A DNA stretch of 64,000 nt. Source: Curtobacterium aurantiacum. Its GTDB lineage: Bacteria; Actinomycetota; Actinomycetes; Actinomycetales; Microbacteriaceae. Shown piece by piece: positions 178-61,569 of this stretch. The notes beneath the pieces were generated by a model. That model was not told the DNA's origin, made no database searches, and saw only the letters and a list, made by a program, of their open reading frames with translations. Position 1 is the stretch's first letter; each line of letters starts with the position of its first letter. Both the position numbers and the translations under genes were made by a program. The stretch is taken from positions 1 through 64,000 of the forward strand of contig NZ_JAHEWN010000015.1 of the NCBI RefSeq assembly GCF_018598555.1. Reading direction: 5' to 3'.

Positions 178-183
178 TAGGCT
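178..183 (+). promoter_or_regulatory. -10 element TAGGCT, leaderless promoter of the ANTAR regulator
   Basis: TAGGCT is followed by 7 nt and then the GTG start at 191. No Shine-Dalgarno is visible. The spacing puts the transcription start at or next to the start codon, the geometry known for leaderless actinobacterial mRNAs. Confidence 0.6.
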
Positions 184-190
184 TTCGTCC

Positions 191-796
191 GTGAGTGACA
201 CAGAAGCAACAGCACCAGCACCCCGTCGCGTCGTCGTCGCCGAGGACGAGTCGCTCATCCGCCTCGACATCGTGGAGATCCTCCGCGACAACGGGTTCGA
301 CGTGGTCGGTGAAGCCGGTGACGGTGAGACCGCCGTCCAGCTCGCGACCGACCTCCGCCCCGACCTCGTCGTGATGGACGTCAAGATGCCCCAGCTCGAC
401 GGCATCTCCGCAGCCGAGAAGCTGTCCAAGAACCACATCGCGCCCGTCGTCCTGCTGACCGCGTTCAGCCAGAAGGACCTCGTCGAGCGTGCGACCGAGG
501 CCGGCGCGCTGGCCTACGTGGTCAAGCCCTTCACCCCGAACGACCTGCTCCCCGCGATCGAGATCGCCCTCTCGCGGTACCAGCAGATCATCACGCTCGA
601 AGCCGAGGTCGCCGACCTCGTCGAGCGCTTCGAGACCCGCAAGCTCGTCGACCGTGCCAAGGGCCTGCTGAACGAGAAGATGGGCCTCACCGAGCCCGAG
701 GCCTTCCGCTGGATCCAGAAGGCCTCGATGGACCGCCGCCTGACCATGCACGACGTCGCGAAGGCGATCATCGAGCAGCTCAGCGCCAAGAAGTAG
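191..796 (+). CDS. pdtaR: ANTAR-domain response regulator (PdtaR-like)
   Basis: This 201-residue two-component response regulator has an N-terminal receiver domain (residues about 13-130). It shows the acidic pair E18/D19, phospho-acceptor D63 in the VVMDVKMP strand, and a conserved Lys in VVKPF near residue 113. The C-terminal part (about 140-200) is a three-helix ANTAR RNA-binding domain containing KGLLNEKMGLTEPEAFRWIQ. ANTAR regulators act as antiterminators by binding paired hairpins in nascent RNA. The family, and the position shortly before polA, rpsA and coaE, match Mycobacterium Rv1626 (PdtaR). The frame stays open upstream through the tandem repeat. I start at GTG 191 because the receiver domain begins just after it and a leaderless -10 precedes it. 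No partner kinase is visible here. Confidence 0.9.
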   Translation: MSDTEATAPAPRRVVVAEDESLIRLDIVEILRDNGFDVVGEAGDGETAVQLATDLRPDLVVMDVKMPQLDGISAAEKLSKNHIAPVVLLTAFSQKDLVERATEAGALAYVVKPFTPNDLLPAIEIALSRYQQIITLEAEVADLVERFETRKLVDRAKGLLNEKMGLTEPEAFRWIQKASMDRRLTMHDVAKAIIEQLSAKK

Positions 797-818
797 TCCA
801 CGCACCACCGTCGCTCAC

Positions 819-855
819 GGAACGCCGCCGGACCCCCTGGGGTCGGCGGCGTTCC
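819..855 (+). terminator. Hairpin terminator after the ANTAR regulator
   Basis: GGAACGCCGCC pairs with GGCGGCGTTCC, and the stem continues as GACCCC/GGGGTC with a one-base bulge and a very small loop. It lies 23 nt after the regulator stop and ahead of the GNAT gene. Confidence 0.75.
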
Positions 856-892
856 TGCGTCCGGGGGCGGGGCGTGTTCCGCGACCACCTGG

Positions 893-898
893 CAGGCT
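893..898 (+). promoter_or_regulatory. -10-like CAGGCT, 6 nt before the GNAT start
   Basis: CAGGCT is one base off the TAGGCT seen at polA and pdtaR and has the same 6-nt spacing to the start codon. GGAGG at 899-903 is too close to the ATG (1 nt) to be a normal ribosome binding site. Confidence 0.45.
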
Positions 899-904
899 GG
901 AGGC

Positions 905-1375
905 ATGGACGACGTGGTGATCCGAGCCTCCCGGCCTGACGACATGGCGGCCGTGGCCGACCTGCGGTGGCGGTGGAGCGTGGACGAGGGCGGCGCGCAG
1001 CCGGCGACGAGCGTCGAGGCGTACCGCGATGCCATGACGGCGTTCGCCGCTGCCCACGCGGAGTCGCACCGGTGCGTCGTCGCGGAGCGGGACGGTGTGG
1101 TGCTCGGCATGGCGTGGCTCGGGCTCGTCGCGCGACCGCCGCTGCCGGACCGGCCGGGGCGTCGACTGACTGCTGACGTGCAGACGGTCTACGTGCACCC
1201 GGAGCTGCGAGGTTCCGGCGTCGCCGGACGCCTCGTGACGGCCCTCCTCGAGCTCGCCGACGAACTCGGCGTGGAGCGGACGTCGGTGCACTCGAGCGTG
1301 GACGGCGAACGGCTCTACCGGCGGCTCGGGTTCGGCGACGCGCGCCTGCTCCTGCAGCGGCCGCCGGAGGACTGA
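905..1375 (+). CDS. GNAT-family N-acetyltransferase
   Basis: A 156-residue single-domain GNAT acetyltransferase. Near residue 95 it has the acetyl-CoA-binding motif A, VQTVYVHPELRGSGVAGRLV. This carries the R/Q-x-x-G-x-G/A pyrophosphate loop (RGSGVAGR) after a beta-4 strand. The C-terminal YRRLGFGDARLLLQR matches the final strands of the fold. The family acetylates amines on antibiotics, polyamines, amino acids or protein N-termini. The substrate cannot be told from sequence. It stands alone between a terminator and a convergent thioesterase gene. Confidence 0.85.
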   Translation: MDDVVIRASRPDDMAAVADLRWRWSVDEGGAQPATSVEAYRDAMTAFAAAHAESHRCVVAERDGVVLGMAWLGLVARPPLPDRPGRRLTADVQTVYVHPELRGSGVAGRLVTALLELADELGVERTSVHSSVDGERLYRRLGFGDARLLLQRPPED

Positions 1376-1391
1376 GCGGTCCGTCGGTCGG

Positions 1392-1814
1392 TCAGCGACG
1401 CTCGCGGATCATGTTCGTGATCCGCACGGTGGAGCACCGGCGACCCTGGTCGTCGGTCAGGACGATCTCGTGCGTGGTGAGCGTGCCGCCCAGGTGGATG
1501 GCGGTGCACGTGCCCGTGACGATCCCGCTCGTGGCGCTCCTGGAGTGCGAGGCGTTGAGCTCGATGCCGACGGCGTAGCGGCCGGGCCCGGCGTGCACGT
1601 TCGCGGCCATCGAACCGAGGCTCTCCGCGAGCACGACGTAGGCGCCGCCGTGCAGCAGCCCGACCGGCTGGCGGTTGCCCTCGACGGGGATCGAACCGAC
1701 CGCCCGCTCGGCCGAGAGCTCGGTGATGACCATGCCCATCTTCTCGGCCAGCTCGCCCATGCCGCGTTCGTCGAGGCGGGGATCGATCGTGGTCGATGTG
1801 GTGTCGTCGGTCAC
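1392..1814 (-). CDS. PaaI-type hotdog-fold thioesterase
   Basis: This 140-residue protein has the hotdog thioesterase signature HGGAYVVLAESLGSMAA, followed by GIELNASHSRSATSGIVTGT and a C-terminal strand CSTVRITNMI. It should hydrolyse an acyl- or aryl-CoA thioester in the cytoplasm, acting as a PaaI/YbgC-like housekeeping hydrolase. The substrate is not predictable. The GTG at 1814 is the first plausible start in frame. A weak GGAAGG lies about 12 nt upstream, so the start is uncertain by a few codons. It diverges from polA with 47 bp between starts and converges on the GNAT gene. Confidence 0.85.
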   Translation of the reverse strand: MTDDTTSTTIDPRLDERGMGELAEKMGMVITELSAERAVGSIPVEGNRQPVGLLHGGAYVVLAESLGSMAANVHAGPGRYAVGIELNASHSRSATSGIVTGTCTAIHLGGTLTTHEIVLTDDQGRRCSTVRITNMIRERR

Positions 1815-1849
1815 GGTCTGCGTCGACCTTCCGTGTCAGCGGGCGTCGG

Positions 1850-1855
1850 TAGGCT
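1850..1855 (+). promoter_or_regulatory. -10 element TAGGCT, leaderless promoter of polA
   Basis: TAGGCT, 6 nt, then GTG at 1862. There is no Shine-Dalgarno in the interval. Confidence 0.6.
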
Positions 1856-1861
1856 GTCCGG

Positions 1862-4531: not shown

Positions 4532-4587
4532 CCCGGGGGCGGCGCGGACTCCGCTCTGCCCGGGGGCCGTCCCGCCCCGCGGGTCGG

Positions 4588-4593
4588 TAGGGT
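4588..4593 (+). promoter_or_regulatory. -10 element TAGGGT, leaderless promoter of the DUF885 gene
   Basis: TAGGGT, 6 nt, then ATG at 4600, with no Shine-Dalgarno. Confidence 0.58.
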
Positions 4594-4599
4594 CGGGGC

Positions 4600-6279: not shown

Positions 6280-6323
6280 CGCGCCGTCGACACGCCCGGT
6301 TGTGGGGCCTCCGCCGGTGCGGT

Positions 6324-6329: not shown

Positions 6330-6437
6330 TGTGCGGCGCAATCCGCGCCACTCAATCAATCGCCACGGCGGTGCACCACGGGGGCCGAGTCCCCGCACGC
6401 CATGGCCCGACTCATGTCCGTTCGGAGCAATCTCTAC

Positions 6438-8005: not shown

Positions 8006-8011
8006 TACCCT
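8006..8011 (+). promoter_or_regulatory. -10 element TACCCT, leaderless promoter of coaE
   Basis: TACCCT, 6 nt, then GTG at 8018, directly after the rpsA terminator. No Shine-Dalgarno is present. Confidence 0.58.
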
Positions 8012-9724: not shown

Positions 9725-9730
9725 TACGCT
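9725..9730 (+). promoter_or_regulatory. -10 element TACGCT, leaderless promoter of the AMP-ligase gene
   Basis: TACGCT, 6 nt, then GTG at 9737. TAGGGT at 9712-9717 overlaps the previous stop codon and is a second candidate. Confidence 0.55.
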
Positions 9731-12657: not shown

Positions 12658-13986
12658 TCAGGCCGAGCGCTGCTCGGCCTTCGGGGTGCCGATCTCGAGC
12701 ACGCCGTCCGTCGACGTCAGCCGCTGTGGCTTCATGAACCAGGCGACGACGGCAGCGGCCCCGAGCAGGACGCAGGAGAGCGCGAAGGGCAGCTGCCATC
12801 CGGAGGCGTCGATGAGCAGGCCGAAGACCACCGGGGAGACCACACCCGCGATCCCGAACCCGGTGTTCATGAAGCCGGAGGCCGTGCCGGACCACTGCGG
12901 TGCGACGTCCATCGGGATCGCCCAGAGGTTGGCGTTGCAGAGCTCGAGGAAGAAGAACGACAGGGCGAGCGAGACCGTTGCGACGAGCAGGCCCTGGCCG
13001 ACCACGAGCGGGATGAGGCAGAGCAGCGAGCCGCCGAGGCCGATCACCAGGATCACCCGTCGAGCGTTCCGGGTGTCCCCGCCGCGGTGGATGATCCGGT
13101 CGCTGAGCATCCCGCCGACGGTGTCCCCGACGACACCGGCGAGCAGGATGAGGGTGGTGAAGAGCGCGAAGTCGGCGATCTCGAGTCCGTAGGTCGAACT
13201 GAGGAACGTCGGCAGCCACGTGAGGAACACCCAGAGGGTCCACCCGTAGCCGAAGTCGACGAACGTGACCGGCAGGATCTGCTTCGCCATCTGCCGCCAC
13301 GGCACCGGGGGACGGGTCGCCCGGGTCTCGACCGGCGGGAGCTCGGCGAGTTCGACCTGCGTGATGCCCTTCGCGGACTCGGGCTTGTCGCGGAACCAGA
13401 CGAACCAGACGATCGCCCACGCCAGGGAGAGCACCGCGGTGGCGAAGAACGCCCAGCGCCAACTCCCCGTCGCGCCGATCACCCACGCGACGATGAGCGG
13501 GGCCAGGGCGTTCCCGAGTCGCGCCGCCGAGTGCACGACGCCCTGGGCGAAGCCGTTCCGGTCACGGGGGATCCACCGGCTCATCGCCTGGGTCGCGGTC
13601 GGGAACGCGGCGGCCTCGCTGAGTCCGAGGAGCGCCCGCGCGGCGAAGAGGGTCCAGAAACCGACGGCGAACCCGGTCCAGAGCGTGGCGACGCCCCAGA
13701 TCACCGTGATGACGAAGAGCGCCCTCCGCGGACCGAACTTCTCGCTGATGGTGCCCCCGAACACCTGCAGCAGGGCGTACGGCAGCGAGAACGCGGAGAC
13801 GATGAGCCCCGCGGTGGCCTCGTTGAAGCCGAACTCCTCGGTGATGTGCGGCAGGGCGGTGGAGATGTTCGTCCGGTCGATGTACGAGATCGCGTACATG
13901 AAGCAGAGCAGGACGAGCACGCGGCCGCGGATGCGTCCGCGGAACGGGGTGCCCTTGGACGGTGCGGCCGGGGTCGCCGTGGTCAT
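12658..13986 (-). CDS. MFS transporter, anion:cation symporter type
   Basis: A 442-residue transporter with twelve predicted membrane segments. The start FMYAISYIDRTNISTALPHI (about residues 33-52) is characteristic of the ACS branch of the major facilitator family (galactonate, glucarate and phthalate carriers). KFGPRRALFVITVIWG is the loop 2-3 motif and WRWAFFATAVLSLAWAIVWF is helix 6. The likely role is uptake of a small organic or sugar acid with protons. No catabolic gene or regulator lies beside it. It diverges from uvrB. AGAGG 4 nt upstream of the ATG serves as the ribosome binding site. ACGGT(N7)ACCGT at 14036-14052 near its presumed promoter is a weak operator candidate. Confidence 0.85.
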   Translation of the reverse strand: MTTATPAAPSKGTPFRGRIRGRVLVLLCFMYAISYIDRTNISTALPHITEEFGFNEATAGLIVSAFSLPYALLQVFGGTISEKFGPRRALFVITVIWGVATLWTGFAVGFWTLFAARALLGLSEAAAFPTATQAMSRWIPRDRNGFAQGVVHSAARLGNALAPLIVAWVIGATGSWRWAFFATAVLSLAWAIVWFVWFRDKPESAKGITQVELAELPPVETRATRPPVPWRQMAKQILPVTFVDFGYGWTLWVFLTWLPTFLSSTYGLEIADFALFTTLILLAGVVGDTVGGMLSDRIIHRGGDTRNARRVILVIGLGGSLLCLIPLVVGQGLLVATVSLALSFFFLELCNANLWAIPMDVAPQWSGTASGFMNTGFGIAGVVSPVVFGLLIDASGWQLPFALSCVLLGAAAVVAWFMKPQRLTSTDGVLEIGTPKAEQRSA

Positions 13987-14131
13987 GAGGCCTCTTCGGG
14001 GGAGTGGGAAGGAGTCGGGGTGCTGAACAGATCGGACGGTATGCCTGACCGTTAGCAGTGGACTTGGAGCCTGCTTGCAGCGGACAATACGCCCAGGGCG
14101 AGCAACGTCCTCCCGTGTCAGGGGTGCCGAC

Positions 14132-14137
14132 TACCGT
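14132..14137 (+). promoter_or_regulatory. -10 element TACCGT, leaderless promoter of uvrB
   Basis: TACCGT, 7 nt, then ATG at 14145. No LexA-type palindrome is evident in the 158-bp divergent region. Confidence 0.55.
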
Positions 14138-14144: not shown

Positions 14145-16229
14145 ATGGGTGTTGCGATCGAACCGACCCGAGCGGTGCGTCCGTTCGAGGTCATCAGCGA
14201 GTACTCGCCGAGCGGCGACCAGCCCGCGGCCATCGCCGAACTCGCCGGGCGGATCAACGCCGGTGAGACCGACGTCGTGCTGCTCGGTGCGACCGGTACC
14301 GGCAAGTCGGCGACGACGGCGTGGCTCATCGAGCAGGTGCAGCGGCCGACGCTCGTGCTCGCGCACAACAAGACCCTCGCGGCGCAGCTCGCGAACGAGT
14401 TCCGCAGCCTGATGCCGAACAACGCGGTCGAGTACTTCGTCTCGTACTACGACTACTACCAGCCAGAGGCGTACGTCCCGCAGACGGACACGTTCATCGA
14501 GAAGGACTCCTCCGTCAACGCCGAGGTCGAACGCCTCCGGCACTCGACGACGAACTCGCTGCTCAGCCGTCGGGACACCGTGGTGGTGTCGACCGTGTCG
14601 TGCATCTACGGTCTCGGCACCCCTGAGCAGTACATGAACGCCTCGGTCGCGCTCCACGTCGGTCAGACGATCTCGCGCGACCAGCTCGTCCGCAAGTTCG
14701 TCGCCATGCAGTACCAGCGCAACGACGTCGACTTCGCCCGCGGCACCTTCCGTGTGCGCGGCGACACCATCGAGATCATCCCGATGTACGAAGAGCACGC
14801 GATCCGCATCGAGATGTTCGGTGACGAGATCGAAGCGCTCTCCTCGCTGCACCCCCTCACCGGCAACGTCATCGACGACCTGCCCGCCGTCTCGATCTTC
14901 CCGGCATCGCACTACGTCGCCGACACCGACGTGATGCACCGGGCGATCGTCTCCATCAAGGAAGAACTCGCGGAGCGGCTCGCCGAGCTCGAGGGCCAGG
15001 GCAAGCTGCTCGAAGCGCAGCGCCTCCGCATGCGCACGACGTTCGACATCGAGATGATGGAGCAGATCGGCTTCTGCTCCGGCATCGAGAACTACTCGCG
15101 CCACATGGACGGCCGTGGGCCGGGCGAAGCACCGCACTGCCTCATCGACTACTTCCCGGACGACTTCCTCATCGTCATCGACGAGTCGCACGTCACCGTG
15201 CCGCAGATCGGCGCGATGTACGAAGGCGACGCCTCCCGCAAGCGGACCCTCGTCGAGCACGGTTTCCGCCTGCCCAGCGCGATGGACAACCGTCCGCTGA
15301 AGTGGGAAGAGTTCCTCGAGCGCGTCGGGCAGAAGGTCTACCTGTCGGCCACCCCGGGCCGCTACGAGCTCGGTGTCACCGACAGCGTGGTGGAGCAGAT
15401 CATCCGCCCGACCGGCCTGATCGACCCCGAGATCGTGGTGAAGCCGAGCGACGGCCAGATCGACGACCTGCTCGAGGAGATCAAGCAGCGCGTCGAGAAG
15501 GACGAGCGCGTCCTCGTCACGACGCTCACCAAGCGCATGGCCGAGGAGCTCACCGACTTCCTCGGGAACGCCGGCGTGCGCGTCCGGTACCTGCACTCCG
15601 ACGTCGACACCCTCAAGCGCGTCGAACTGCTCACCGAGCTGCGGCAGGGCGTGTACGACGTCCTCGTGGGCATCAACCTGCTGCGTGAGGGCCTCGACCT
15701 GCCCGAGGTGTCGCTCGTCGCGATCCTCGACGCCGACAAGGAAGGCTTCCTCCGCTCGTCGACGTCCCTGATCCAGACGATCGGCCGCGCTGCCCGCAAC
15801 GTCTCGGGGCAGGTGCTCATGTACGCCGACAAGATGACCGACTCGATGAAGACCGCGATCGAGGAGACCGATCGCCGTCGCGAGAAGCAGGTCGCGTACA
15901 ACCTGGAGCGCGGCATCGACCCGCAGCCGCTGCGCAAGAAGATCGCCGACATCACCGAGGTGCTGCAGCGCGAGAACGACGACACGAAGGCGCTGCTGCA
16001 GGGCCGCCCCGGGACCGATGGTCGTCGGTCACCGACGCCGAACCTCAAGCGAGGGGGCATCGCCGGCGAGGGCGCCACGCAGCTCGGTGCCACCATCGCC
16101 GACCTCAACGACCAGATGCTGCAGGCAGCCGCCGAACTGAAGTTCGAGCTCGCCGCCCGCCTGCGCGACGAGGTGCAGGACCTGAAGAAGGCCCTGCGGC
16201 AGATGGAGTCCGCCGGGCATGTCAGCTGA
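14145..16229 (+). CDS. uvrB: Excinuclease ABC subunit B
   Basis: A 694-residue helicase-like damage-verification subunit of nucleotide excision repair. Walker A GATGTGKS is at residues 48-55. The beta-hairpin region contains [20 protein letters not shown], which inserts between DNA strands. [17 protein letters not shown] holds the DESH box. Helicase motifs [20 protein letters not shown] and QTIGRAARN follow. The C-terminal UVR motif is [21 protein letters not shown], which contacts UvrC. I start at ATG 14145. Upstream in-frame codons (to 14058) would add 29 residues unlike the family and lie beyond the -10 element. Confidence 0.98.
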
Positions 16230-17136: not shown

Positions 17137-17170
17137 CCCTCCCTCCCGGCCGAATGTCGGTGCGGCTTCG

Positions 17171-17176
17171 TAGAAT
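17171..17176 (+). promoter_or_regulatory. -10-like TAGAAT, 8 nt before uvrA
   Basis: TAGAAT, 8 nt, then ATG at 17185. The spacing is one or two bases longer than at most other leaderless candidates here. No Shine-Dalgarno is visible. Confidence 0.5.
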
Positions 17177-23397: not shown

Positions 23398-24378
23398 GTG
23401 CCGTTGACTGCCGAAGTCAAGGACGAACTGGCCAGGGTCGCCGTGAACCGCAACACGGTCCGCGCCGCCGAACTGGCCACGATCCTCCGGTTCGCAGGTG
23501 GTCTGCACGTCATCTCGGGCCGCATCGCGGTCGAGGTCGAGCTCGACACCCGGATCATCGTGCACCGGGTCCGCAAGGACCTCGCCGAGCTCTACGGGGT
23601 GCGCAGCGAGGCCTCGGTGGGGTCGTCCGCGTCCTCCCGCCGTGGCACCCGGTACCTGGTCCGTGTGCTCGAGGCGGGGGAGACCCTCGCGCGCCAGACC
23701 GGGCTGATGGACGCCCGTCGCCGCCCCGTCCGCGGGCTGCCGAACCGGCTCACCACCGGCAACCGTGAGGACCTCGCCGCCATCTGGCGCGGCGCATTCC
23801 TCGCCTCCGGCACGCTGACCGACCCGGGTCGCGCCGCAGCGCTCGAGGTCACCTGCCCCGGCAACGAGGCAGCCATGGCCCTCGTCGGTGCCGCGTCGCG
23901 CCTCGGCGTCGCCGCCAAGGGCCGCGAGGTCCGCGGGGTGCACCGGGTCGTCATCCGCGACGGCGAGGCCATCGGTCAGATGCTCACCGTCATGGGCGCC
24001 GCACGCACCACCGCCGACTGGGAGGAGATGCGCCAGCGCCGCGAGGTCCGTGCGACCGCGAACCGCCTGGTCAACTTCGACGACGCGAACCTGCGCCGTT
24101 CCGCGCAGGCCGCCGTGGCCGCCTGCGCCCGGGTCGAGCGTGCGCTCGAGATCCTCGGCGACGAGGTCCCCGACCACCTCAAGTACGCCGGCGCGCTGCG
24201 TCTGCAGCACCGCGACGCATCGCTCGACGAGCTCGGTCAGCACGCGGACCCGCCCATGACGAAGGACGCCATCGCCGGGCGCATCCGCCGCCTGCTCGCG
24301 ATGGCCGACAAGCGGGCGTCGGACCTCGGCGTCCCCGGTACCGAGGCGAGCGTCCCGGAAGAGCTCGAAGGGGTCTGA
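23398..24378 (+). CDS. whiA: Sporulation/cell-division transcription factor WhiA
   Basis: A 326-residue DNA-binding protein, exactly the usual WhiA length from this start ([18 protein letters not shown]). The N-terminal two thirds resemble a LAGLIDADG homing-endonuclease fold that has lost catalysis ([36 protein letters not shown]). The C-terminal third is a helix-turn-helix ([29 protein letters not shown]). In Streptomyces it activates sporulation genes with WhiB. In non-sporulating actinobacteria it is linked to division and chromosome control. It is followed by a perfect palindromic terminator. Confidence 0.95.
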
Positions 24379-45167: not shown

Positions 45168-45283
45168 GGATTCTCCTAGAATGGACTGCTGGTCCCGTTT
45201 CGGAACCATCGGTCCCGTCAGCGTAGCGGTGCACCTCACGCACACACCGTTGTGCAAACCCACCAACTGATTGGACGTCCACT

Positions 45284-46882
45284 GTGCTTGCCGTGCACGA
45301 ACTCGAGATCCGCGTCGGAGCTCGTCTCCTCATGGAGGACGTGTCCTTCCGTGTCGAGAAGGGCGACAAGATCGGACTCGTCGGCCGCAACGGCGCGGGG
45401 AAGACGACGATGACGAAGGCCCTCGCGGGCGAGACGCAGCCCACCGGCGGCAAGATCGAGCGCGGTGGTGAGATCGGTTACCTGCCGCAGGACCCCCGCT
45501 CCGGCGACCCGGAGGAGACCGCGCGCAAGCGCATCCTCGACGCCCGCGGGCTCGGTGAGCTCGTGGAGGGCATCCGCCTCGCGACCCTCGACATGGCGAG
45601 TGACGACGCGGCCGTGGCCGAGAAGGCGATGCGGCGCTACAGCCGCCTCGACGACCAGTTCAACGCGCTCGGTGGCTACGCGGCCGAGGCCGAGGCTGCC
45701 TCGATCGCGTCGAACCTCAAGTTGCCGGACCGCATCCTCGACCAGCAGCTCAAGACGCTCTCCGGTGGTCAGCGCCGTCGCATCGAACTCGCCCGGATCC
45801 TGTTCTCGGACGCCGAGACGATGATCCTCGACGAGCCGACCAACCACCTCGACGCCGACTCCGTCGTGTGGCTCCGCGAGCACCTGAAGACCTACCCCGG
45901 CGGCGTCATCATCATCTCCCACGACGTGGAGCTCGTCGACGAGGTCGTGAACCGCGTGTTCTACCTCGACGCCAACCGCCAGACCATCGACATCTACAAC
46001 ATGGGCTGGAAGCTGTACCAGCGACAGCGCGTCGCCGACGAGGATCGCCGTCGCAAGGAGCGCGCCGGCGCCGAGAAGAAGGCCGCGACCCTGAAGGACC
46101 AGGCCGCGCGCTTCGGTGCCAAGGCGTCCAAGGCCGCGGCAGCGCACCAGATGGTCGCCCGTGCCGACAAGCTGCTCGCCGGCCTCGAGGACGAGCGCGT
46201 CGCCGACCGGGTCGCGAAGATCCGCTTCCCGACGCCGGCTCCGTGCGGCCGCACCCCGCTGATGGCCGAGGGGCTGTCGAAGTCCTACGGGTCGCTCGAG
46301 ATCTTCGCGGGTGTCGACCTGGCGATCGACCGCGGTTCGCGCGTGGTCATCCTCGGGTTCAACGGTGCCGGCAAGACGACGCTGCTGCGCATCCTGGCGG
46401 GTGCCGACCAGCCCGACACCGGCGAGATCCAGCCCGGGCACGGTCTGCGCATCGGGTACTACGCGCAGGAGCACGAGAACATCGACATCAACCGCACGGT
46501 GATCGAGAACATGGTGTCGGCGTCGACCGACCTCAACGAGACCGAGGCCCGTCGGGTGCTCGGGTCGTTCCTGTTCACCGGCGACGACGGCTACAAGAAG
46601 GCCGGCGTGCTGTCCGGTGGCGAGAAGACGCGTCTGTCGCTCGCGATGATCGTCGTCTCGGGTGCGAACGTCCTGCTGCTCGACGAACCGACGAACAACC
46701 TGGACCCTGCATCGCGCGAGGAGATCCTCAACGCACTCGCCGGGTTCGAGGGCGCGGTCGTCCTGGTGTCCCACGACGCCGGTGCGGTCGAGGCACTCAA
46801 CCCCGAGCGTGTGCTGCTCCTGCCGGACGGCACCGAGGACCACTGGAACAAGGACTACGCGGAGCTCATCGAGCTCGCGTAG
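45284..46882 (+). CDS. ABC-F family ATPase (translation factor type)
   Basis: A 532-residue protein with two ABC ATPase domains and no membrane segments. The first Walker A GRNGAGKTT is near residues 34-42, with signature LSGGQRRRIELARILF and ILDEPTNHLDADSVVWL. The interdomain linker (about residues 225-310) is highly charged. The second domain has GFNGAGKTTLL, LSGGEKTRLSLAMIV and LLDEPTNNLDP. ABC-F proteins act on the ribosomal E site, and some give antibiotic protection. Position after the suf region matches Mycobacterium Rv1473, a reported macrolide-related ABC-F, but a resistance role here is not shown. Confidence 0.9.
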   Translation: MLAVHELEIRVGARLLMEDVSFRVEKGDKIGLVGRNGAGKTTMTKALAGETQPTGGKIERGGEIGYLPQDPRSGDPEETARKRILDARGLGELVEGIRLATLDMASDDAAVAEKAMRRYSRLDDQFNALGGYAAEAEAASIASNLKLPDRILDQQLKTLSGGQRRRIELARILFSDAETMILDEPTNHLDADSVVWLREHLKTYPGGVIIISHDVELVDEVVNRVFYLDANRQTIDIYNMGWKLYQRQRVADEDRRRKERAGAEKKAATLKDQAARFGAKASKAAAAHQMVARADKLLAGLEDERVADRVAKIRFPTPAPCGRTPLMAEGLSKSYGSLEIFAGVDLAIDRGSRVVILGFNGAGKTTLLRILAGADQPDTGEIQPGHGLRIGYYAQEHENIDINRTVIENMVSASTDLNETEARRVLGSFLFTGDDGYKKAGVLSGGEKTRLSLAMIVVSGANVLLLDEPTNNLDPASREEILNALAGFEGAVVLVSHDAGAVEALNPERVLLLPDGTEDHWNKDYAELIELA

Positions 46883-50536: not shown

Positions 50537-50542
50537 ACGGTA
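50537..50542 (-). promoter_or_regulatory. -10 element TACCGT, leaderless promoter of serB
   Basis: On the reverse strand TACCGT, 6 nt, then GTG at 50530. It lies between the glgC terminator and serB, so serB is independently transcribed. Confidence 0.58.
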
Positions 50543-50611: not shown

Positions 50612-51853
50612 CTACGCGTCGACGCGGACGCCCTTGCCCACCACGGTGATGCCGGACTCGGTGACGGTGAAGCCGCGCGCCTCGTCGGCCTCGCGGTCGA
50701 CGCCGACCTGCGCACCCGGTGCGAGGACGACGTCCTTGTCGAGGATGGCGCGGTTGACGATCGCCCCGGCGCCGATGGTGGCACGCTCGAACACGATCGA
50801 GTCGAGGACCTTGGCACCGGAGTCGATCGAGCACCAGGGCCCGATCATGCTGCGCTCGACCTGCGCACCCGACACGAGGCAGCCGAGTGAGACGAGTGAG
50901 TCCACCGTGGAACCGGTGTTGCCGTTCGCGTCGCGGACGAACTTCGCCGGCGGCAGGTTCGTCTGCTGGTTGAAGATCGGCCAGTCCTGGTTGTACAGGT
51001 TGAAGACCGGGACCGGGGCGATGAGGTCCATGTGGGCGTCGAAGAACGAGTCGATCGTCCCCACGTCGCGCCAGTAGTACTTGTCGCGGTCGGTGGAGCC
51101 GGGGACCTCGTTGCGCTGCAGGTCGTACACGCCGGCGTCGCCGCGGTTCACGAAGTCCGGCACGATGTCGCCGCCCATGTCGTGGGCCGAGGTCTCGAGC
51201 TGGCCGTCCCGCAGGACCGCGTCGACGAGGGCGTCGGCGTTGAACACGTAGTTGCCCATCGAGGCCAGGATCTCGCCGGGGGAGTCGGCCAGGCCGATGG
51301 CGTCCTTCGGCTTCTCGAGGAACGCGTCGATCTTGGTCGGGTCGTCCTCGGCCACCTGGATCACGCCGAACTGGTCGGCGAGTCCGATCGGCTGGCGGAT
51401 CGCCGCCACGGTGGCGCTGCGGCCGGAGGCGATGTGCGCCTCGACCATCTGGTGGAAGTCCATCCGGTACACGTGGTCCGCGCCGACGACGACCACGATG
51501 TCGGGGCGTTCGTCGCGGAGCAGGTTGAGCGACTGCAGGATCGCGTCGGCCGAACCGGCGAACCAGCGCTTGCCGAGCCGCTGCTGCGCGGGGACGGACG
51601 CGACGTAGGAGCCGAGCAGCCCCTCCATGCGCCACGTCTCCGCGACGTGCCGGTCGAGACTGTGCGACTTGTACTGCGTCAGGACGACGATCTTCTGCAG
51701 ACCGGAGTTGACCAGGTTCGACAGTGCGAAGTCGATGAGACGGAAGTTGCCGCCGAACGGGACGGCGGGCTTCGCGCGGTCGGCCGTGAGCGGCATGAGT
51801 CGCTTGCCTTCGCCGCCGGCGAGCACGATGCCGAAGACCTTCTTTGGTGCCAT
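50612..51853 (-). CDS. glgC: Glucose-1-phosphate adenylyltransferase
   Basis: A 413-residue ADP-glucose pyrophosphorylase. [28 protein letters not shown] is the nucleotidyl-transfer signature. [17 protein letters not shown] has the metal Asp, and [11 protein letters not shown] the glucose-1-phosphate site. The C-terminal left-handed beta-helix contains [28 protein letters not shown]. It supplies ADP-glucose to the divergent glgA. ATG 51853 is chosen: the family starts [11 protein letters not shown], and a leaderless TACTGT lies 7 nt upstream. Confidence 0.96.
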
Positions 51854-51860
51854 GCCGCTC

Positions 51861-51894
51861 ACAGTAGGCGTCAGCACTGGGAACCGGTTACGTT
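51861..51894. promoter_or_regulatory. Back-to-back leaderless promoters of glgC and glgA
   Basis: ACAGTA (51861-51866) reads TACTGT towards glgC, 7 nt from its ATG. TACGTT (51889-51894) reads towards glgA, 6 nt from its GTG. The two starts are 47 nt apart, so each gene's -35 region must lie in or against the other's -10. Confidence 0.6.
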
Positions 51895-51900
51895 GAACCA

Positions 51901-53100
51901 GTGCGAGTCGATCTGCTGACCAGGGAGTATCCGCCGGAGGTCTACGGCGGAGCGGGTGTCCACGTGTCCGAACTCACCGCCGCGTTGCGGTCGGGGACGG
52001 ACACGGAAGTCCGTGTCCGGGCCTTCGGGGCCTTCCGTGACGAACCCGACGTGTGGGGCTACCGGACCCCGGACGGCCTCGGCCAGGCGAACGGCGCGCT
52101 GCAGGCGCTCGGCACCGACGTGGCCATCGCGGCCGACGTCGAAGGTGCCGACCTCGTGCACTCGCACACCTGGTACGCGAACTCCGCGGGCCGGATCGCG
52201 CAGCTCACCTACGGCATCCCCCACATCGTCACCGCCCACAGCCTCGAGCCCCTGCGCCCGTGGAAGGCCGAACAGCTCGGCGGCGGCTACCGCCTGTCCA
52301 GCTGGATGGAGCGCGAGGCGTTCGAACACGCCGACGGGGTCATCGCGGTCTCCAAGGCCATGCGCGCGGACATCCTGCGCTCGTACCCGTCGATCGACCC
52401 GGCGAAGGTGCACGTGGTCTACAACGGCATCGACATCGACGCGTGGAAGCCCACCGTCGACGAGGACGCCGTGCGCGCCCTCGGCATCGACCCGACGCGC
52501 CCGAGCGTCGTGTTCGTCGGACGCATCACCCGCCAGAAGGGCCTGCCGTACCTGCTCCGCGCGGTGGCGTCGCTGCCGTCGGACGTGCAGATCGTGCTGT
52601 GCGCCGGCGCGCCGGACACCCCCGAGATCCTGGCCGAGGTCACCGAGCTCGTCGAGGGACTCCGCGCGGAACGCGAGGGCGTCGTCTGGATCGACCGGAT
52701 GCTCGCGCACCAGGAGATCGTGAACGTGCTGTCCTCGGGCACCGTGTTCGTGTGCCCGTCGGTGTACGAGCCGCTCGGCATCGTGAACCTCGAGGCCATG
52801 GCGTGCGGCATCCCCGTCGTCGGCACCGGCACCGGGGGCATCCCCGAGGTCGTCGCCGACGGCCTCACCGGTCGGATCGTCCCGATCGACCAGGTGCAGG
52901 ACGGCACCGGCACGCCGACCGACCCCGACCGCTTCGTGGCCGACCTCGCCGCGACCCTCACCGAGGTGCTCGCCGACGAGGGTCTCGCGAAGCTCATGGG
53001 GCGTGCCGGGCGGCTCCGTGTCGAGACCGAGTTCACCTGGGATGCGATCGCCACCAGGACACGGCACGTCTACGACCAGGTGCTCGGCCAGAACCCGTAG
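51901..53100 (+). CDS. glgA: Glycogen synthase, GT4 (GlgA/GlgM type)
   Basis: A 399-residue GT-B glycosyltransferase using ADP-glucose. [26 protein letters not shown] is the N-terminal loop. [26 protein letters not shown] and [31 protein letters not shown] (E-x7-E motif) follow. It is the short GT4 form known from Corynebacterium and Mycobacterium. In mycobacteria this enzyme (GlgM) makes maltose-1-phosphate from ADP-glucose and glucose-1-phosphate for the GlgE pathway. Which product applies here cannot be read from sequence. Leaderless GTG start. Confidence 0.93.
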
Positions 53101-53103
53101 GCT
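53098..53103 (+). promoter_or_regulatory. -10 element TAGGCT whose first three bases are the glgA stop codon
   Basis: TAG (glgA stop, 53098-53100) plus GCT forms TAGGCT, 6 nt before the ATG of the ABC ATPase gene at 53110. Confidence 0.55.
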
Positions 53104-55164: not shown

Positions 55165-55170
55165 AGGCTA
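55165..55170 (-). promoter_or_regulatory. -10 element TAGCCT, leaderless promoter of the exonuclease gene
   Basis: On the reverse strand TAGCCT, 6 nt, then GTG at 55158, just after the treS stop. Confidence 0.55.
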
Positions 55171-55193
55171 ACGGGACGCACCGACACCCCCGA

Positions 55194-56903
55194 CTACCGG
55201 GTCGGCGCGCCGACGTGCAGCCAGTAGAACGACTGCGTGCCCATGGTGAGTGTGACGTTGCCGTCCTCGTCGAACGACGGGAACGAGCCGCCGCCGAACA
55301 GGTCGTACAGCGGCCGCCCCGCGAACTCCGGAGCGGACACCGTGACCGAGGTCGGGTTCGTCGCGAACGAGAACACGCACAGGACGTCCTCGGCGGAGGG
55401 GCCGAACTGTTGGCCGGAACCCTCCCACGAGCGGACGAAGGCGAGCACGGAGTCGTTCGAGGTCTCCTGCACGTGCAGCGTGCCGAGCCCGAACACCGGG
55501 TGCGCCTTGCGCGTGTGGATGACGTTGCGGACCCAGTGCAGCAGCGAGCGCGACTGGGCCAGCTGCGCCTCGACGTTGACCTGCGCGTAGTTGTAGACGA
55601 GCGACTGGACGACCGGCAGGTAGAGCTTGCCCGGGTCGGCGGTGGAGAAGCCCGCGTTCCGGTCCGGCGTCCACTGCATCGGCGTGCGCGACGAGTCGCG
55701 GTCCGGCAGCCAGATGTTGTCGCCCATCCCGATCTCGTCGCCGTAGTACAGGAACGGCGAGCCCGGCAGCGAGAACAGCAGCGCGTGGATGAGCTCGAGC
55801 TCGGCGCGCGAGTTGTCGAGCAGGGGAGCGAGGCGTCGCCGGATACCGATGTTCGAGCGCATCCGCGGGTCGTATCCGTACCAGCCGTACATCGCCTGGC
55901 GGTACTCCTCGCTCACCATCTCGAGCGTGAGCTCGTCGTGGTTGCGCAGGAAGACGCCCCACGCCGCGCTGGCCGGAACGTCGAGGGTCTCGGACAGGAT
56001 CGCCTTGAGCTCGGCGGCGTGCTGGGCACGGAGCGAGTAGAAGATGCGGGGCATCACCGGGAAGTCGAACGCCATGTGGCACTCGGGCTCCTCGTCGGTG
56101 CCGAAGAACGCCGCGGTCTCGCGCGGCCACTGGTTCGCCTCGGCGAGGAGCACCCGGCCGGGGTACTCGTCATCGACCATCGCGCGGAGCTTCTTGATGA
56201 ACTCGTGCGTCTCCGGCTCGCCCTCGCCGTTGCCCTCTTCCGACTCGAACAGGTAGGGGATCGCGTCGAGCCGGAGCCCGTCCACACCCATGTCGAGCCA
56301 GTGCCGGACGACGTCGTAGATGGCCTCGATGACCGCGGGGTTCTCGAAGTTCAGGTCGGGCTGGTGCGAGAAGAACCGGTGGAAGAAGAACTGGCGCCGG
56401 ACCGGGTCGAAGGTCCAGTTGGACTCCTCGGTGTCGACGAAGATGATGCGGATGTTCGAGTAGTCCTCGTCGGTGTCCCGCCACACGTAGAAGTCGCCGT
56501 AGGGGCCGTCCGGGTCCTCGCGGGACTGCTGGAACCACTCGTGCTGGTCGCTGGTGTGGTTGATCACCATGTCGATCACGATGCGCATGTTCCGCTCGTG
56601 CGACTTCGTGACGAGCTCGCGGAAGTCGTCGAGCGTGCCGAACTCGGGCAGGATCGCGCGGTAGTCGGCGATGTCGTAGCCGCCGTCGCGCATCGGTGAC
56701 TGGAAGAACGGCGGGAGCCACAGGGCGTCCACACCGAGCCACTGGAGGTAGTCGAGCTTGCCGATGACGCCCTGGATGTCGCCGATGCCGTCTCCGTTGG
56801 AGTCGACGAACGACCGGATCATGCACTCGTAGAAGACCGAGCGCTTGTACCACTGCGGGTCGAGCGTCAGGCCGGGCAGCTGGATCGGGGCTGTGAAGGT
56901 CAC
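55194..56903 (-). CDS. treS: Trehalose synthase (maltose alpha-D-glucosyltransferase)
   Basis: A 569-residue GH13 enzyme interconverting maltose and trehalose. The nucleophile is D213 (DGLRLDAIPYLF), the acid/base E255 (LLAEANQWP) and the third Asp D323 (FLRNHDELTLEM). DPQWYKRSVFYECMIRSF is a TreS-specific start. FLYYGDEIGMGDNIWLPDRDSSRTPMQW also marks the family. There is no C-terminal maltokinase (Pep2) fusion. GTG 56903 with AGGAG 4 nt upstream. With glgC and the GT4 synthase nearby it suggests trehalose-glycogen exchange. Confidence 0.94.
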   Translation of the reverse strand: MTFTAPIQLPGLTLDPQWYKRSVFYECMIRSFVDSNGDGIGDIQGVIGKLDYLQWLGVDALWLPPFFQSPMRDGGYDIADYRAILPEFGTLDDFRELVTKSHERNMRIVIDMVINHTSDQHEWFQQSREDPDGPYGDFYVWRDTDEDYSNIRIIFVDTEESNWTFDPVRRQFFFHRFFSHQPDLNFENPAVIEAIYDVVRHWLDMGVDGLRLDAIPYLFESEEGNGEGEPETHEFIKKLRAMVDDEYPGRVLLAEANQWPRETAAFFGTDEEPECHMAFDFPVMPRIFYSLRAQHAAELKAILSETLDVPASAAWGVFLRNHDELTLEMVSEEYRQAMYGWYGYDPRMRSNIGIRRRLAPLLDNSRAELELIHALLFSLPGSPFLYYGDEIGMGDNIWLPDRDSSRTPMQWTPDRNAGFSTADPGKLYLPVVQSLVYNYAQVNVEAQLAQSRSLLHWVRNVIHTRKAHPVFGLGTLHVQETSNDSVLAFVRSWEGSGQQFGPSAEDVLCVFSFATNPTSVTVSAPEFAGRPLYDLFGGGSFPSFDEDGNVTLTMGTQSFYWLHVGAPTR

Positions 56904-57004
56904 CGTGCTCCTCGTCGAAGGTCCACGGACCGGTCGACGGCCCGCCCCGGACACGATAGGCGCGAGATGCTGCGGGTGTCCGGGTTTTCGTGCGGTTGGC
57001 TCCC

Positions 57005-57010
57005 TAGACT
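57005..57010 (+). promoter_or_regulatory. -10 element TAGACT, leaderless promoter of the hydrolase gene
   Basis: TAGACT, 7 nt, then ATG at 57018. It lies in the 114-bp divergent region with treS. Confidence 0.57.
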
Positions 57011-57017
57011 GGCGCGG

Positions 57018-59128: not shown

Positions 59129-59150
59129 GCGCGGTGCCGCGGCCGCTCGC

Positions 59151-59882
59151 CTACTCGGGCGCGAGCACCTGCACGTCGGCGCCCGGGAACACCTTCTGCG
59201 TCTCCTCGGTCACCCGCGCGACGATGGGCGGCACCGCGGCGCCCCGTCCCGGCGTCCGCGCGACGACCGCCTGGTCACCGTCGTCGTCCGATGCGTCGCC
59301 GCCGCGCTCCCACGAGCAGCGGACCTCGGTGACCCCGCCGATGCGGTCGAGGGCGTCAGCCAGTGCCAGGCGCTTCGCCGCGACGGCGCCGGCCCCGGTG
59401 ACGCCCACCTCGAGGTTGCCGAGGTCGGCGATGGCGACGACCCGGACTCCGTTGCCACCGGCCTCGTCGGCTGCGCGGCTGATCGCCGCGACCAGGTCAC
59501 GACGGGCGCCGCGGTCGAGCGTCGGCTCGGCGCGGACGGTGGCGACGGCGTCGTAGCTCGCGAACGCGGTCTTCGATGCGGCGTGGTGCCGTACCCCGAG
59601 GACCCCGGGCAGGTCGGCGACCCGGTCGTCGAACCGGTCGAGCGCGACGTCCGGGTTGGGGAAGACCCCGCCGATGCCGTTCTGGACGCTCCCGATGATC
59701 GAACCGAGCACGACGGCGATGACCGCGGCGACGGCCAGGGTGCTGGCACCGATCACGAACCACGTCCGGGTGCGGAGCCGGGTCGGGACGCTCGCCGTCT
59801 CCGGTCCGAACACGCGGTCCAGGTCGTCTGCCTGCTGCTCCGGGGCACGCCGACCGTACCGGTCGGTTCCGTCGTCGGACAT
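59151..59882 (-). CDS. Single-pass membrane protein of unknown function
   Basis: A 243-residue protein that I do not recognise. The N-terminal 45 residues are polar and charged (probably cytoplasmic). One helix spans about 46-70 (WFVIGASTLAVAAVIAVVLGSIIG). An extracytoplasmic alpha/beta-like domain of about 170 residues follows, containing VRHHAASKTAFASYDAVATVRAEP and VRVVAIADLGNLEVGVTG. Length and layout suggest two similar ferredoxin-like halves, but this is impression only. ATG 59882 with GGGAG 5 nt upstream. It is convergent with the glycosyltransferase gene. Confidence 0.72.
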   Translation of the reverse strand: MSDDGTDRYGRRAPEQQADDLDRVFGPETASVPTRLRTRTWFVIGASTLAVAAVIAVVLGSIIGSVQNGIGGVFPNPDVALDRFDDRVADLPGVLGVRHHAASKTAFASYDAVATVRAEPTLDRGARRDLVAAISRAADEAGGNGVRVVAIADLGNLEVGVTGAGAVAAKRLALADALDRIGGVTEVRCSWERGGDASDDDGDQAVVARTPGRGAAVPPIVARVTEETQKVFPGADVQVLAPE

Positions 59883-59940
59883 GTCGCTCCCCTCACACGC
59901 GTGTGCGGGCTGGTCGGGTCCGTCGGAGCCTAGTCCCTGG

Positions 59941-60579
59941 TCAGGCCCGGCGTTCGAGCGGGTTCTGGTACTCGAAGGCCGAACCACCGGTGACCTCGGA
60001 GACGTCGTCGATCGGGTCGTCGAACCGGACCAGTTCGGCGTGGAAGCGTTCCGGGTCCCAGCGGAACGAGTGGATCGAGCCGTTCCGGATCGGGGTGTGG
60101 CGGCGGTCGGCGGTGCCCGGCGCTGCGGCGTTCACGACACTGCGGATCACGGCACCGTGCGTCGCGACCACGACGACGCCCGCGTCGAAGCGCACCGCGA
60201 TCTCGCCGAGCGTCTCGGTGACGCGGGCGAGCAGGGCGGAGCGGGATTCGCGACCGGGGATGTCGTCGTGCGGGTAGCGCGCCGACACCTCGTCGTCGGT
60301 GAGCCCCTCGGCCTCGCCGTAGGAGCGCTCGGCGAGCCCCGGGTACGTCGTCGGCACGTCGAGCCCCAGACGATCGGCGATGATCGCCCCCGTCTCGGCC
60401 GCGCGCGAGAGCGGCGACGCGACGACGGCGTCGAAGTGTCTTCGCGCCAGGAGTTCGGCGGCCTCGGCGGCCTGCCGTCGTCCGGTGTCGTTGAGCGGGA
60501 TGTCGGTGGAACCCTGGATGCGGCGCTGCGCGTTCCAGTCGGTCTCGCCGTGGCGGACGAGGTACAGGAGGGTCGTCAC
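59941..60579 (-). CDS. Histidine phosphatase family protein
   Basis: A 212-residue phosphoglycerate-mutase-like enzyme. LVRHGETDWNAQRRIQGSTDIPLNDTGRRQA has the catalytic His10 in RHG. VVASPLSRAAETGAII and VVVVATHGAVIRSVVN supply the second Arg and His. Substrates of this family range from 3-phosphoglycerate to cobalamin or sugar phosphates. GTG 60579 has a weak -10-like GAAGAT six nt upstream. Confidence 0.88.
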   Translation of the reverse strand: MTTLLYLVRHGETDWNAQRRIQGSTDIPLNDTGRRQAAEAAELLARRHFDAVVASPLSRAAETGAIIADRLGLDVPTTYPGLAERSYGEAEGLTDDEVSARYPHDDIPGRESRSALLARVTETLGEIAVRFDAGVVVVATHGAVIRSVVNAAAPGTADRRHTPIRNGSIHSFRWDPERFHAELVRFDDPIDDVSEVTGGSAFEYQNPLERRA

Positions 60580-60601
60580 CTGACGATCTTCGCAGACGCG
60601 C

Positions 60602-60686
60602 CCCGCGCGCCCGTCCGGCGGACGTGACCCGCGCGCCCGTCCGACACGACCCGCGCGCCCGTCCGACGCGACCCGCGCGCCCGTCC
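60602..60686. repeat. 22-bp tandem repeat, four copies of a 15-bp core
   Basis: CCCGCGCGCCCGTCC occurs exactly at 60602, 60628, 60650 and 60672, with spacings 26, 22 and 22. It fills the gap between the sirtuin stop and the phosphatase start. Confidence 0.85.
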
Positions 60687-60701
60687 AGCCGATGCGACCG
60701 G

Positions 60702-61556
60702 CTAGTCGGCGGATGCCACCGCGCTGAGTCGCTCCGCCAGGTGCACGAGCGTCTCGGTGGTGCCGGCGTCGATCTTCACGGCCGCGCGACGGTCGCTCCG
60801 GGTCTCGCCACGGTTCACGATCACGACGGGGTTCTTGCGCCGGGCGGCGTGGTCGACCAGGCGCACGCCGGAGTTCACGGTGAGGGACGACCCCACCACG
60901 AGCAGCGCATCGGCATCCGCCACGATCGACACCGCCTCACGGAACTTCTCGGCCGGCACGAACTCGCCGAAGAACACGACGTCGGGCTTGAGGTCGCCGC
61001 CGCACACCGAGCACGCAGGCACGACGAACCGTTCGACGTCGGTGATCTCGACGTCGCCGTCGGGCTGGAGCTGCACCGATCCGGGCTCGTCGATCCAGGG
61101 GTTCGCCCGGTCGATGGTGGCGGCGAGGTCGGAGCGGGAGAAGACCTGTCCGCAGGTCAGACAGACCGCGCGGTCCATCGACCCGTGGATCTCCACGACC
61201 CGGCGGGACCCGGCGCGCAGGTGCAGGCCGTCGACGTTCTGCGTGATGACGCCGGCGACGATCCCGGCGTCCTCGAGGGCGGCGAGCGCCCGGTGCCCGT
61301 CGTTCGGCACGGCCGCTGCGAAGCTCCGCCAACCCAGGTGCGATCCGGCCCAGTAGCGCTGGCGCTTGGCGGGGTCGGCCAGGAACTCCTGGAAGGTCAT
61401 CGGCTTCCGCACCACGCGACCGGCGCCGCGGTAGTCCGGGATGCCGGAGTCGGTGCTCAGACCGGCTCCGGAGAGCACGGCGATGCGCTTGCCCGCGAGC
61501 ACCTCGACGACGCGGTCGAGGTCGTCGGCGGTCGAGGTCGCAGCATCATCCAGCAC
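60702..61556 (-). CDS. Sirtuin NAD-dependent protein deacylase
   Basis: A 284-residue Sir2-family enzyme. GAGLSTDSGIPDYRG is at residues 30-44. VITQNVDGLHLRAGS and IHGSMDRAVC carry the catalytic His. The zinc site is CLTCGQ and CSVCGG. DVVFFGEFVPAEKFREAVSI and LLVVGSSLTVNSGVRLV follow. It removes acyl groups from lysines using NAD. In actinobacteria acetyl-CoA synthetase is a known target. GTG 61556 is chosen: it has a leaderless TACCGT 7 nt upstream. Confidence 0.93.
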   Translation of the reverse strand: MLDDAATSTADDLDRVVEVLAGKRIAVLSGAGLSTDSGIPDYRGAGRVVRKPMTFQEFLADPAKRQRYWAGSHLGWRSFAAAVPNDGHRALAALEDAGIVAGVITQNVDGLHLRAGSRRVVEIHGSMDRAVCLTCGQVFSRSDLAATIDRANPWIDEPGSVQLQPDGDVEITDVERFVVPACSVCGGDLKPDVVFFGEFVPAEKFREAVSIVADADALLVVGSSLTVNSGVRLVDHAARRKNPVVIVNRGETRSDRRAAVKIDAGTTETLVHLAERLSAVASAD

Positions 61557-61563
61557 CCTGTTC

Positions 61564-61569
61564 ACGGTA
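61564..61569 (-). promoter_or_regulatory. -10 element TACCGT, leaderless promoter of the sirtuin gene
   Basis: On the reverse strand TACCGT, 7 nt, then GTG at 61556. The 9-bp repeat array begins 31 bp upstream of it, where the -35 would lie close by. Confidence 0.55.

Follow-up and report, generated by a model that had tools for sequence, protein, structure and literature searches.

The 64,000 nucleotides considered here, hereafter the window, are positions 1–64000 of contig C6 of a draft genome (3.60 Mb, 35 contigs), which on the evidence of its PolA is a Curtobacterium-like member of the Microbacteriaceae, because this protein has 98% identity with its counterpart in Curtobacterium flaccumfaciens UCD-AKU, followed by matches in other Curtobacterium and then in Frigoribacterium. 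The window carries 16 genes before which an earlier note had described a −10-like hexamer, mostly of the form TANNNT, standing 6–8 nt upstream of the start codon in place of a Shine–Dalgarno (SD) sequence, the signature of leaderless transcription; it runs from the outer edge of the pdtaR hexamer, 178, to that of the hexamer of a sirtuin gene, 61569. Family scans match the names previously given to these genes, namely, an ANTAR response regulator (pdtaR), a GNAT protein, DNA polymerase A, DUF885, CoaE, an AMP-binding enzyme, UvrB, and UvrA, followed in the right half by a HAD phosphatase (serB-like), a nucleotidyl transferase (glgC), a glycosyltransferase (glgA), an ABC ATPase, an exonuclease, an alpha/beta hydrolase, a histidine phosphatase, and SIR2. 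It is very probable that these genes, apart from two doubtful ones, are leaderless, and that four of them, polA, uvrB, uvrA, and the exonuclease gene, are also served by PafBC promoters and induced by DNA damage independently of LexA and RecA.

All 16 genes were located, each with its hexamer placed as described, and in 14 of them the hexamer is a strict TANNNT (Table 1). Codon bias was the sole basis for calling genes, with upstream signals ignored, in the window and a further 400 kb of the same genome, a motif-blind sample of 464 kb out of 3.60 Mb that yielded 420 genes, 419 of them usable. Nine of the 14 strict genes (nine of the 53 window genes) have the hexamer before the start that this caller itself selected. 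Of the motif-guided starts, those of uvrB, glgC, and glgA are backed by their relatives, that of the hydrolase gene more weakly, and that of the sirtuin gene in Curtobacterium only; corrected start codons are suggested for uvrB, glgC, and glgA.

Table 1. Putative −10 hexamers and PafBC (RecA-NDp) octamers in the window. Spacing is the number of nucleotides between hexamer and start codon, or between octamer and −10 hexamer; for hexamers, the last column counts relatives with TANNNT at spacing 6–8.
Feature	Sequence	Position	Strand	Start codon	Spacing (nt)	Family or domain	Relatives and remarks
pdtaR −10 box	TAGGCT	178..183	+	GTG 191	7	Response_reg + ANTAR	74/75
polA −10 box	TAGGCT	1850..1855	+	GTG 1862	6	DNA_pol_A	80/80 Microbacteriaceae loci
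DUF885 gene −10 box	TAGGGT	4588..4593	+	ATG 4600	6	PF05960	61/68
coaE −10 box	TACCCT	8006..8011	+	GTG 8018	6	CoaE	41/47
AMP-binding ligase gene −10 box	TACGCT	9725..9730	+	GTG 9737	6	PF00501	6/6
uvrB −10 box	TACCGT	14132..14137	+	ATG 14145	7	UvrB domains	34/37 at nearest start; motif-guided
uvrA −10 box	TAGAAT	17171..17176	+	ATG 17185	8	UvrA domains	15/23 at nearest start
serB-like HAD phosphatase gene −10 box	TACCGT	50537..50542	−	GTG 50530	6	PF12710	8/23 at nearest start
glgC −10 box	TACTGT	51861..51866	−	ATG 51853	7	Nucleotidyl transferase	24/27 usable; motif-guided
glgA-like glycosyltransferase gene −10 box	TACGTT	51889..51894	+	GTG 51901	6	Glyco_transf_4 + group 1	27/27 usable; motif-guided
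ABC ATPase gene −10 box	TAGGCT	53098..53103	+	ATG 53110	6	ABC_tran	41/46 locus rows
DnaQ-like exonuclease gene −10 box	TAGCCT	55165..55170	−	GTG 55158	6	PRK07942	19/30 at nearest start
Alpha/beta hydrolase gene −10 box	TAGACT	57005..57010	+	ATG 57018	7	Abhydrolase	7/10 rows at nearest start; motif-guided
Sirtuin gene −10 box	TACCGT	61564..61569	−	GTG 61556	7	SIR2	4/30 at nearest start; motif-guided
GNAT gene hexamer, doubtful	CAGGCT	893..898	+	ATG 905	6	GNAT	0/8; GGAGG at 899–903 well placed for GTG 914
Histidine phosphatase gene hexamer, doubtful	GAAGAT	60586..60591	−	GTG 60579	6	Histidine phosphatase	1/23 at nearest start
polA PafBC (RecA-NDp) octamer	TGTCAGCG	1834..1841	+		8		80 relatives: at least 6/7 in 51, 7/7 in 17
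uvrB PafBC (RecA-NDp) octamer	TGTCAGGG	14116..14123	+		8		34 hexamer-bearing relatives: at least 6/7 in 28, 7/7 in 26
uvrA PafBC (RecA-NDp) octamer	TGTCGGTG	17155..17162	+		8		15 hexamer-bearing relatives: at least 6/7 in 12, 7/7 in 10
Exonuclease gene PafBC (RecA-NDp) octamer	TGTCGGTG	55179..55186	−		8		25 hexamer-bearing relatives: at least 6/7 in 23, 7/7 in 12

The SD core is AAGGAGGT and the classical −35 box is TTGACA. A 16S model search of the draft genome found no gene that would give the anti-SD sequence. No SD word of at least four bases stands at the start of 13 of the 14 strict genes, the sirtuin start having been read only by eye. At the GNAT gene, GGAGG ends 1 nt before ATG 905 and 10 nt before GTG 914, making an SD-led start at GTG 914 possible. 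The ordinary ribosome binding sites that had been ascribed to six other genes are present, as SD words at plausible spacing, before gap, secG, bioY, the SufC-like ABC ATPase gene, and the FabG-like SDR gene; in whiA, an SD word is found only before GTG 23398 and not before the called start at 23443.

In the 464-kb sample, TANNNT at a spacing of 6–8 nt precedes 72 of the 419 motif-blind gene starts versus 6 of 8,623 ATG or GTG codons inside genes, and shuffled sequences also fall far below the observed 72, with a mean of 2.4 and a maximum of 8 for dinucleotide shuffles and a mean of 3.5 and a maximum of 11 for base shuffles; the enrichment at this spacing that the earlier note had anticipated is thus found in the sample. 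Outside the window, 63 of 366 genes carry the signal. Within the 72-gene set, 39 hexamers are at spacing 6, 28 at 7, and 5 at 8, and the start codons are divided between ATG (39) and GTG (33). Among the 290 genes that have no same-strand neighbor less than 30 nt upstream, the counts are 34, 25, and 4 at spacings 6, 7, and 8, with 0–4 at each remaining spacing in the range 0–44, while the 129 operon-internal genes give 5, 3, and 1. SD words are depleted in parallel: they occur in 4 of the 72 TANNNT genes, where 8.3 are expected by shuffling, versus 176 of the 347 others, where 57 are expected. No −35 signal was detected, the best match to TTGACA 16–19 nt before the hexamer reaching at least three identities in 25 of the 72 leaderless-like genes versus 172 of the 347 others, nor is there an extended −10 element (TGN), with T at 10% and G at 42% of the respective positions. 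The same pattern is present in other genera of the family, in which 181 of 752 motif-blind genes from 66 loci (of 73, after L084 and loci shorter than 12 kb were dropped) carry TANNNT, with 146 hexamers at spacing 6, 34 at spacing 7, and at most 11 at any other spacing listed; this sample shares many orthologues with the 80 polA loci described below and is not independent of them.

To what extent individual hexamers are conserved was assessed in two sets of relatives. For the left-hand genes, 80 Microbacteriaceae loci around polA were used, the best 80 of 584 relatives and hence close ones, in which the alignment, not the motif, determined the start; for the right-hand genes, loci were taken from 30 genomes of named records, and both the nearest start and any nearby in-frame start were scored. 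Matches beginning beyond query residue 40 (left) or 45 (right) were dropped, as were starts too close to a locus edge. The hexamer of polA is kept throughout, at spacing 6 in 76 loci and at spacing 7 in 4, and beyond the family, TANNNT lies 6–7 nt before an in-frame start in 17 of 20 genomes (of 23 from the same order) belonging to other families, starts in this test being picked for the motif. Conservation is likewise high for pdtaR, the DUF885 gene, coaE, uvrB, glgA, and glgC (Table 1). In uvrA, 9 of the 15 hexamer-bearing starts lie 72–84 nt downstream of the aligned first residue, and the gene therefore appears shorter there. The six AMP ligase relatives found include five from Curtobacterium, the ABC ATPase rows count some genomes twice, and the exonuclease gene rises to 25 of 30 when any in-frame start within 25 codons is accepted. 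The hydrolase gene similarly reaches 9 of 10 rows at any nearby start, none of these rows exceeding 56.1% identity and at least one genome being counted twice. As negative controls, rpsA (0/55), the thioesterase gene (0/76), and the gene behind coaE (0/5) have no TANNNT at these spacings. Three further genes add little: the MFS gene at 12658–13986 (9/20 at the nearest start, 12/20 nearby) was set aside, as 17 of its 20 matches are at most 28% identical, that is, other MFS genes; the gene at 55194–56903 gave no usable rows, its start lying outside the fetched flanks; and the gene at 59151–59882 has TANNNT in none of four relatives.

The inclusion of the serB-like and sirtuin genes in the leaderless list finds support in Curtobacterium and mostly not beyond it. 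All four Curtobacterium are among the eight serB-like genes with the hexamer, and the four Curtobacterium sirtuin genes among the rows listed keep it before an in-frame start. Of the five other sirtuin rows listed, four have GGAG before the start in its stead, and the mode of initiation may thus have switched in this gene. In pdtaR, a further 48 TANNNT hexamers are found at spacing 11–12 among the 75 relatives, overlapping the −10 box and often reading TACCGTAGGNT in the rows listed; these extra hexamers may reflect two start points or a regulator site.

A second element, missed by the earlier note, is present at four of these promoters and likely makes them DNA-damage promoters, as judged from its sequence and position. 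Relatives of polA, uvrB, and uvrA share a common block upstream of the −10 box, and exact matches to TGTCRGNG-N8-TANNNT occur at four sites in the window, all of them at polA, uvrB, uvrA, and the exonuclease gene. At the promoters of other genes, an octamer scoring at least 6/7 at 8 nt is rare (pdtaR 0/74, DUF885 gene 3/61, and coaE 0/41), and for relatives of polA, uvrB, or uvrA, such a score is not reached at spacings of 6, 7, 9, or 10 nt. For comparison, the SOS box has the motif GAACNNNNGTTC; LexA (SOS) control of these genes was considered and rejected, the window containing a single exact copy, at 16134–16145 inside uvrB, where 0.84 are expected by chance. The RecA-independent DNA-damage (RecA-NDp) promoter of mycobacteria has been given the consensus ‘tTGTCRgtg – 8 nt – TannnT’ (PMC5656591), and this motif is reported to be read by PafBC through sigma adaptation (PMC11804915, PMC6789036, PMC8223512). 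If transcription begins on the codon at spacing 6, the octamer occupies approximately −28 to −21, in keeping with the ‘−26 element’ described for PafBC promoters (PMC10936776).

The corresponding regulator appears to be at hand. Two overlapping WYL-domain open reading frames (ORFs) of 350 and 333 aa lie at ~88.3–90.4 kb of C6, ~24 kb beyond the window, and among solved structures they match best, and in the right order, the PafB and PafC portions of 9fnd, 7p5x, and 6sj9, by which PafB and PafC are identified as encoded on the window's own contig. The whole genome contains 23 exact TGTCRGNG-N8-TANNNT sites versus none for the reversed pattern; 15 of these have a plausible coding start 6–9 nt after the hexamer (13 at 6–8), the starts having been picked because they follow the hexamer. 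Among the 15 start-adjacent targets are polA, uvrB, uvrA, the exonuclease gene, and genes for a PcrA-like helicase, a second UvrD-like helicase, an Mfd-like protein, an AlkZ-like glycosylase, and a gyrase-B-type subunit, several of these proteins being cut by locus ends and scoring below full-length cut-offs. The remaining eight sites comprise one at a RecB-like nuclease gene whose start is 30 nt away, four whose best starts are 28–54 nt away, and three without a convincing gene. Compared with the well-separated genes in general, in which 63 of 290 have the hexamer at 6–8 nt (64 with spacing 9 included), the PafBC-type sites are enriched for start adjacency (15/23 at spacing 6–9; Fisher p 2.4e−5, a rough value). 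Across 30 Microbacteriaceae genomes, 782 sites were found versus 38 reversed-pattern controls, and 480 matches (2 in controls) have ATG or GTG 6–8 nt after the hexamer, a number that is an upper bound for sites, since two start codons in range count one site twice (e.g., G079 C5); the ratio of matches to sites ranges from 0.24 to 0.78 per genome. Separately, a 71-codon helix-turn-helix ORF (L148:1530–1742) and an AraC-type regulator gene (L145:1530–2486) each follow an exact PafBC-type promoter, with the start codon at spacing 7, and their products are possible secondary regulators of the damage response.

Whether the TGTCRGNG-N8 element belongs to PafBC or to another regulator such as ClgR deserves consideration, as a cited report holds that ClgR recognizes the same P1 promoter in M. 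smegmatis (PMC5656591). Another owner is unlikely: PafBC is the regulator named as acting on the motif (PMC8223512, PMC6789036), and the PafB–PafC pair is present on the same contig, no search for clgR having been made.

Taken together, position, SD depletion, and family-wide conservation fit a −10 box located 6–7 nt before the start codon and lend support to the leaderless interpretation put forward earlier, the original list being too generous by the two genes that lack a strict TANNNT. In the proposed mechanism, the −10 box of the housekeeping sigma factor, TANNNT, 6–7 nt and once 8 nt before the start codon, would set the transcription start, and RNA polymerase would probably begin at the first base of the ATG or GTG, or no more than one or two bases away from it. 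The resulting message would have neither a 5′ leader nor an SD sequence and would be translated by the leaderless mechanism that is established for other actinobacteria. At polA, uvrB, uvrA, and the exonuclease gene, the promoter would be read by RNA polymerase–sigma-A together with the activator PafBC, which would replace the −35 contact, and the messages would be expected to rise upon DNA damage without LexA or RecA.

There are several points that weigh against this view. Conservation fails for the GNAT gene (no TANNNT in eight relatives) and for the histidine phosphatase gene (1/23 at the nearest start, 2/23 at any nearby one), and outside Curtobacterium, it mostly fails for the sirtuin gene as well (7/30 even at any nearby start). 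Five window starts are motif-guided, the caller having chosen other starts for uvrB, glgC, glgA, the hydrolase gene, and the sirtuin gene. With regard to the second element, the weakly conserved t that opens the published motif is replaced by another base at all four window sites. With one mismatch allowed, the window has 6 matches where 2.49 are expected; because 3 of 100 shuffles also reach 6, near-matches carry little weight by themselves. In one genome, G065, sites do not clearly outnumber controls (6 versus 5). In M. tuberculosis, the message from the RecA-NDp promoter of Rv1955 has a leader of ~49–50 nt, a value obtained by subtraction (PMC2897130), and the RecA-NDp element alone therefore does not imply leaderlessness. 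No transcript map from Curtobacterium or any other Microbacteriaceae was found in the literature searched. Finally, a leader of a few bases may exist, and spacings 7 and 8 may leave 1–2 nt.

The last point leads to the view that these are short-leader genes, in which the −10 box is real and the start lies a few bases off, so that messages carry leaders of 1–5 nt or have a partly lost first codon and use a nearby downstream start. The spacing is indeed not fixed within the 72-gene set, as seen in its distribution over 6, 7, and 8 nt, and the additional pdtaR hexamers at 11–12 nt would give a leader of ~5 nt. This view is nevertheless judged quite improbable, since the hexamer stays 6–7 nt from the start codon across the family, as exemplified by polA, and the set contains fewer SD words than shuffling predicts. 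A further alternative is that the genes have leaders after all, the hexamers being ordinary −10 boxes and translation truly starting at codons further downstream, and some genes do have SD-preceded in-frame codons, for example, GTG 914 in the GNAT gene and GTG 51964 in glgA. This is very unlikely, given that, in most relatives of polA, pdtaR, the DUF885 gene, coaE, glgA, and glgC, the hexamer is found at its usual distance from the start closest to the aligned first residue, and that coding bias arrives at the same start codon for 9 of the 14 genes. Chance, namely, that a motif with only three fixed letters is met before many codons and start codons are then chosen to suit, as could be suspected for the five motif-guided starts among the 14, is refuted by the motif-blind counts (72 of 419 starts versus 6 of 8,623 internal codons, shuffle mean 2.4) and can be disregarded for practical purposes.

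Leaderless transcription from a start-proximal −10 box places the window genes in an already known actinobacterial class. TANNNT about 12 bp before the start has been reported for leaderless genes in 86 of 89 actinobacterial genomes, amounting to around 20% of genes (PMC3160421, Zheng et al. 2011), and transcript mapping in M. tuberculosis has placed TANNNT 7–12 bp before 73% of primary starts, with no −35 motif (PMC3898074, Cortes et al. 2013). The genes examined here have the same hexamer, its first T likewise ~12 bp ahead of the start codon, and, as in M. tuberculosis, lack a −35 consensus; their proportion, 17% (72/419), fits the reported ‘around 20%’, and there is no difference in kind. 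A −10 region adjacent to ORFs and giving leaderless mRNA is also reported for Deinococcus–Thermus (PMC12340547), which is alike in having the −10 box directly before the ORF and differs in being another phylum. With PafBC (RecA-NDp) promoters, the likeness extends to TGTCR-g-N-g, the 8 nt, TAnnnT, targets rich in DNA repair, and the presence of PafB and PafC homologues, the published leading T being absent at the four window sites. Unlike at mycobacterial Rv1955, these promoters mostly adjoin the start codon here (15 of the 23 genomic sites and, across the family, 480 matches to 782 sites). No report that PafBC promoters are generally leaderless turned up in the literature searched, and no link between the two was found in papers that mention both; the leaderless bias, if real, may belong to the Microbacteriaceae rather than to the regulator.

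It is tempting to speculate, albeit tentatively and with the odds somewhat against it, that the PafBC damage regulon of the Microbacteriaceae is built mainly on leaderless promoters, in which activator site, −10 box, and start codon form a compact unit of ~31–33 bp. If so, after DNA damage most PafBC-driven repair genes would be read from leaderless messages, whose mode of translation may differ from that of most other genes, and any help that leaderless translation gives in making repair proteins under genotoxic stress would become directly testable. The analysis also provides a conservation-backed list of leaderless gene candidates for a family without a transcript map in the literature searched, and ties four of them to the PafBC damage response.

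Some arrangements around these genes are worth recording. The start codons of the divergently transcribed glgC and glgA are 47 bp apart (51853–51901), and both starts look leaderless. The ABC ATPase gene has a −10 box (53098–53103) that opens with the glgA stop codon, TAG, and this operon-like gene behind glgA seems, from that hexamer, to have its own leaderless promoter. A two-domain ABC ATPase gene with start codon GTG 45293 has CACTGT 7 nt ahead of that codon (45280–45285) and no SD word, which makes it an imperfect, previously unlisted candidate. An Rfam scan of the window returned no structured RNA family at threshold, and a tRNA search of the window found none. A 9-bp unit, CCGAACCGG, is repeated in 14 tandem copies at 61600–61727, just upstream of the sirtuin gene (60702–61556), and this array probably misled the coding-bias caller into a sirtuin start at 62147. 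The contig end before pdtaR, positions 1–130, is likewise repetitive, being a perfect tandem repeat of 2.5 copies of a 53-bp unit.

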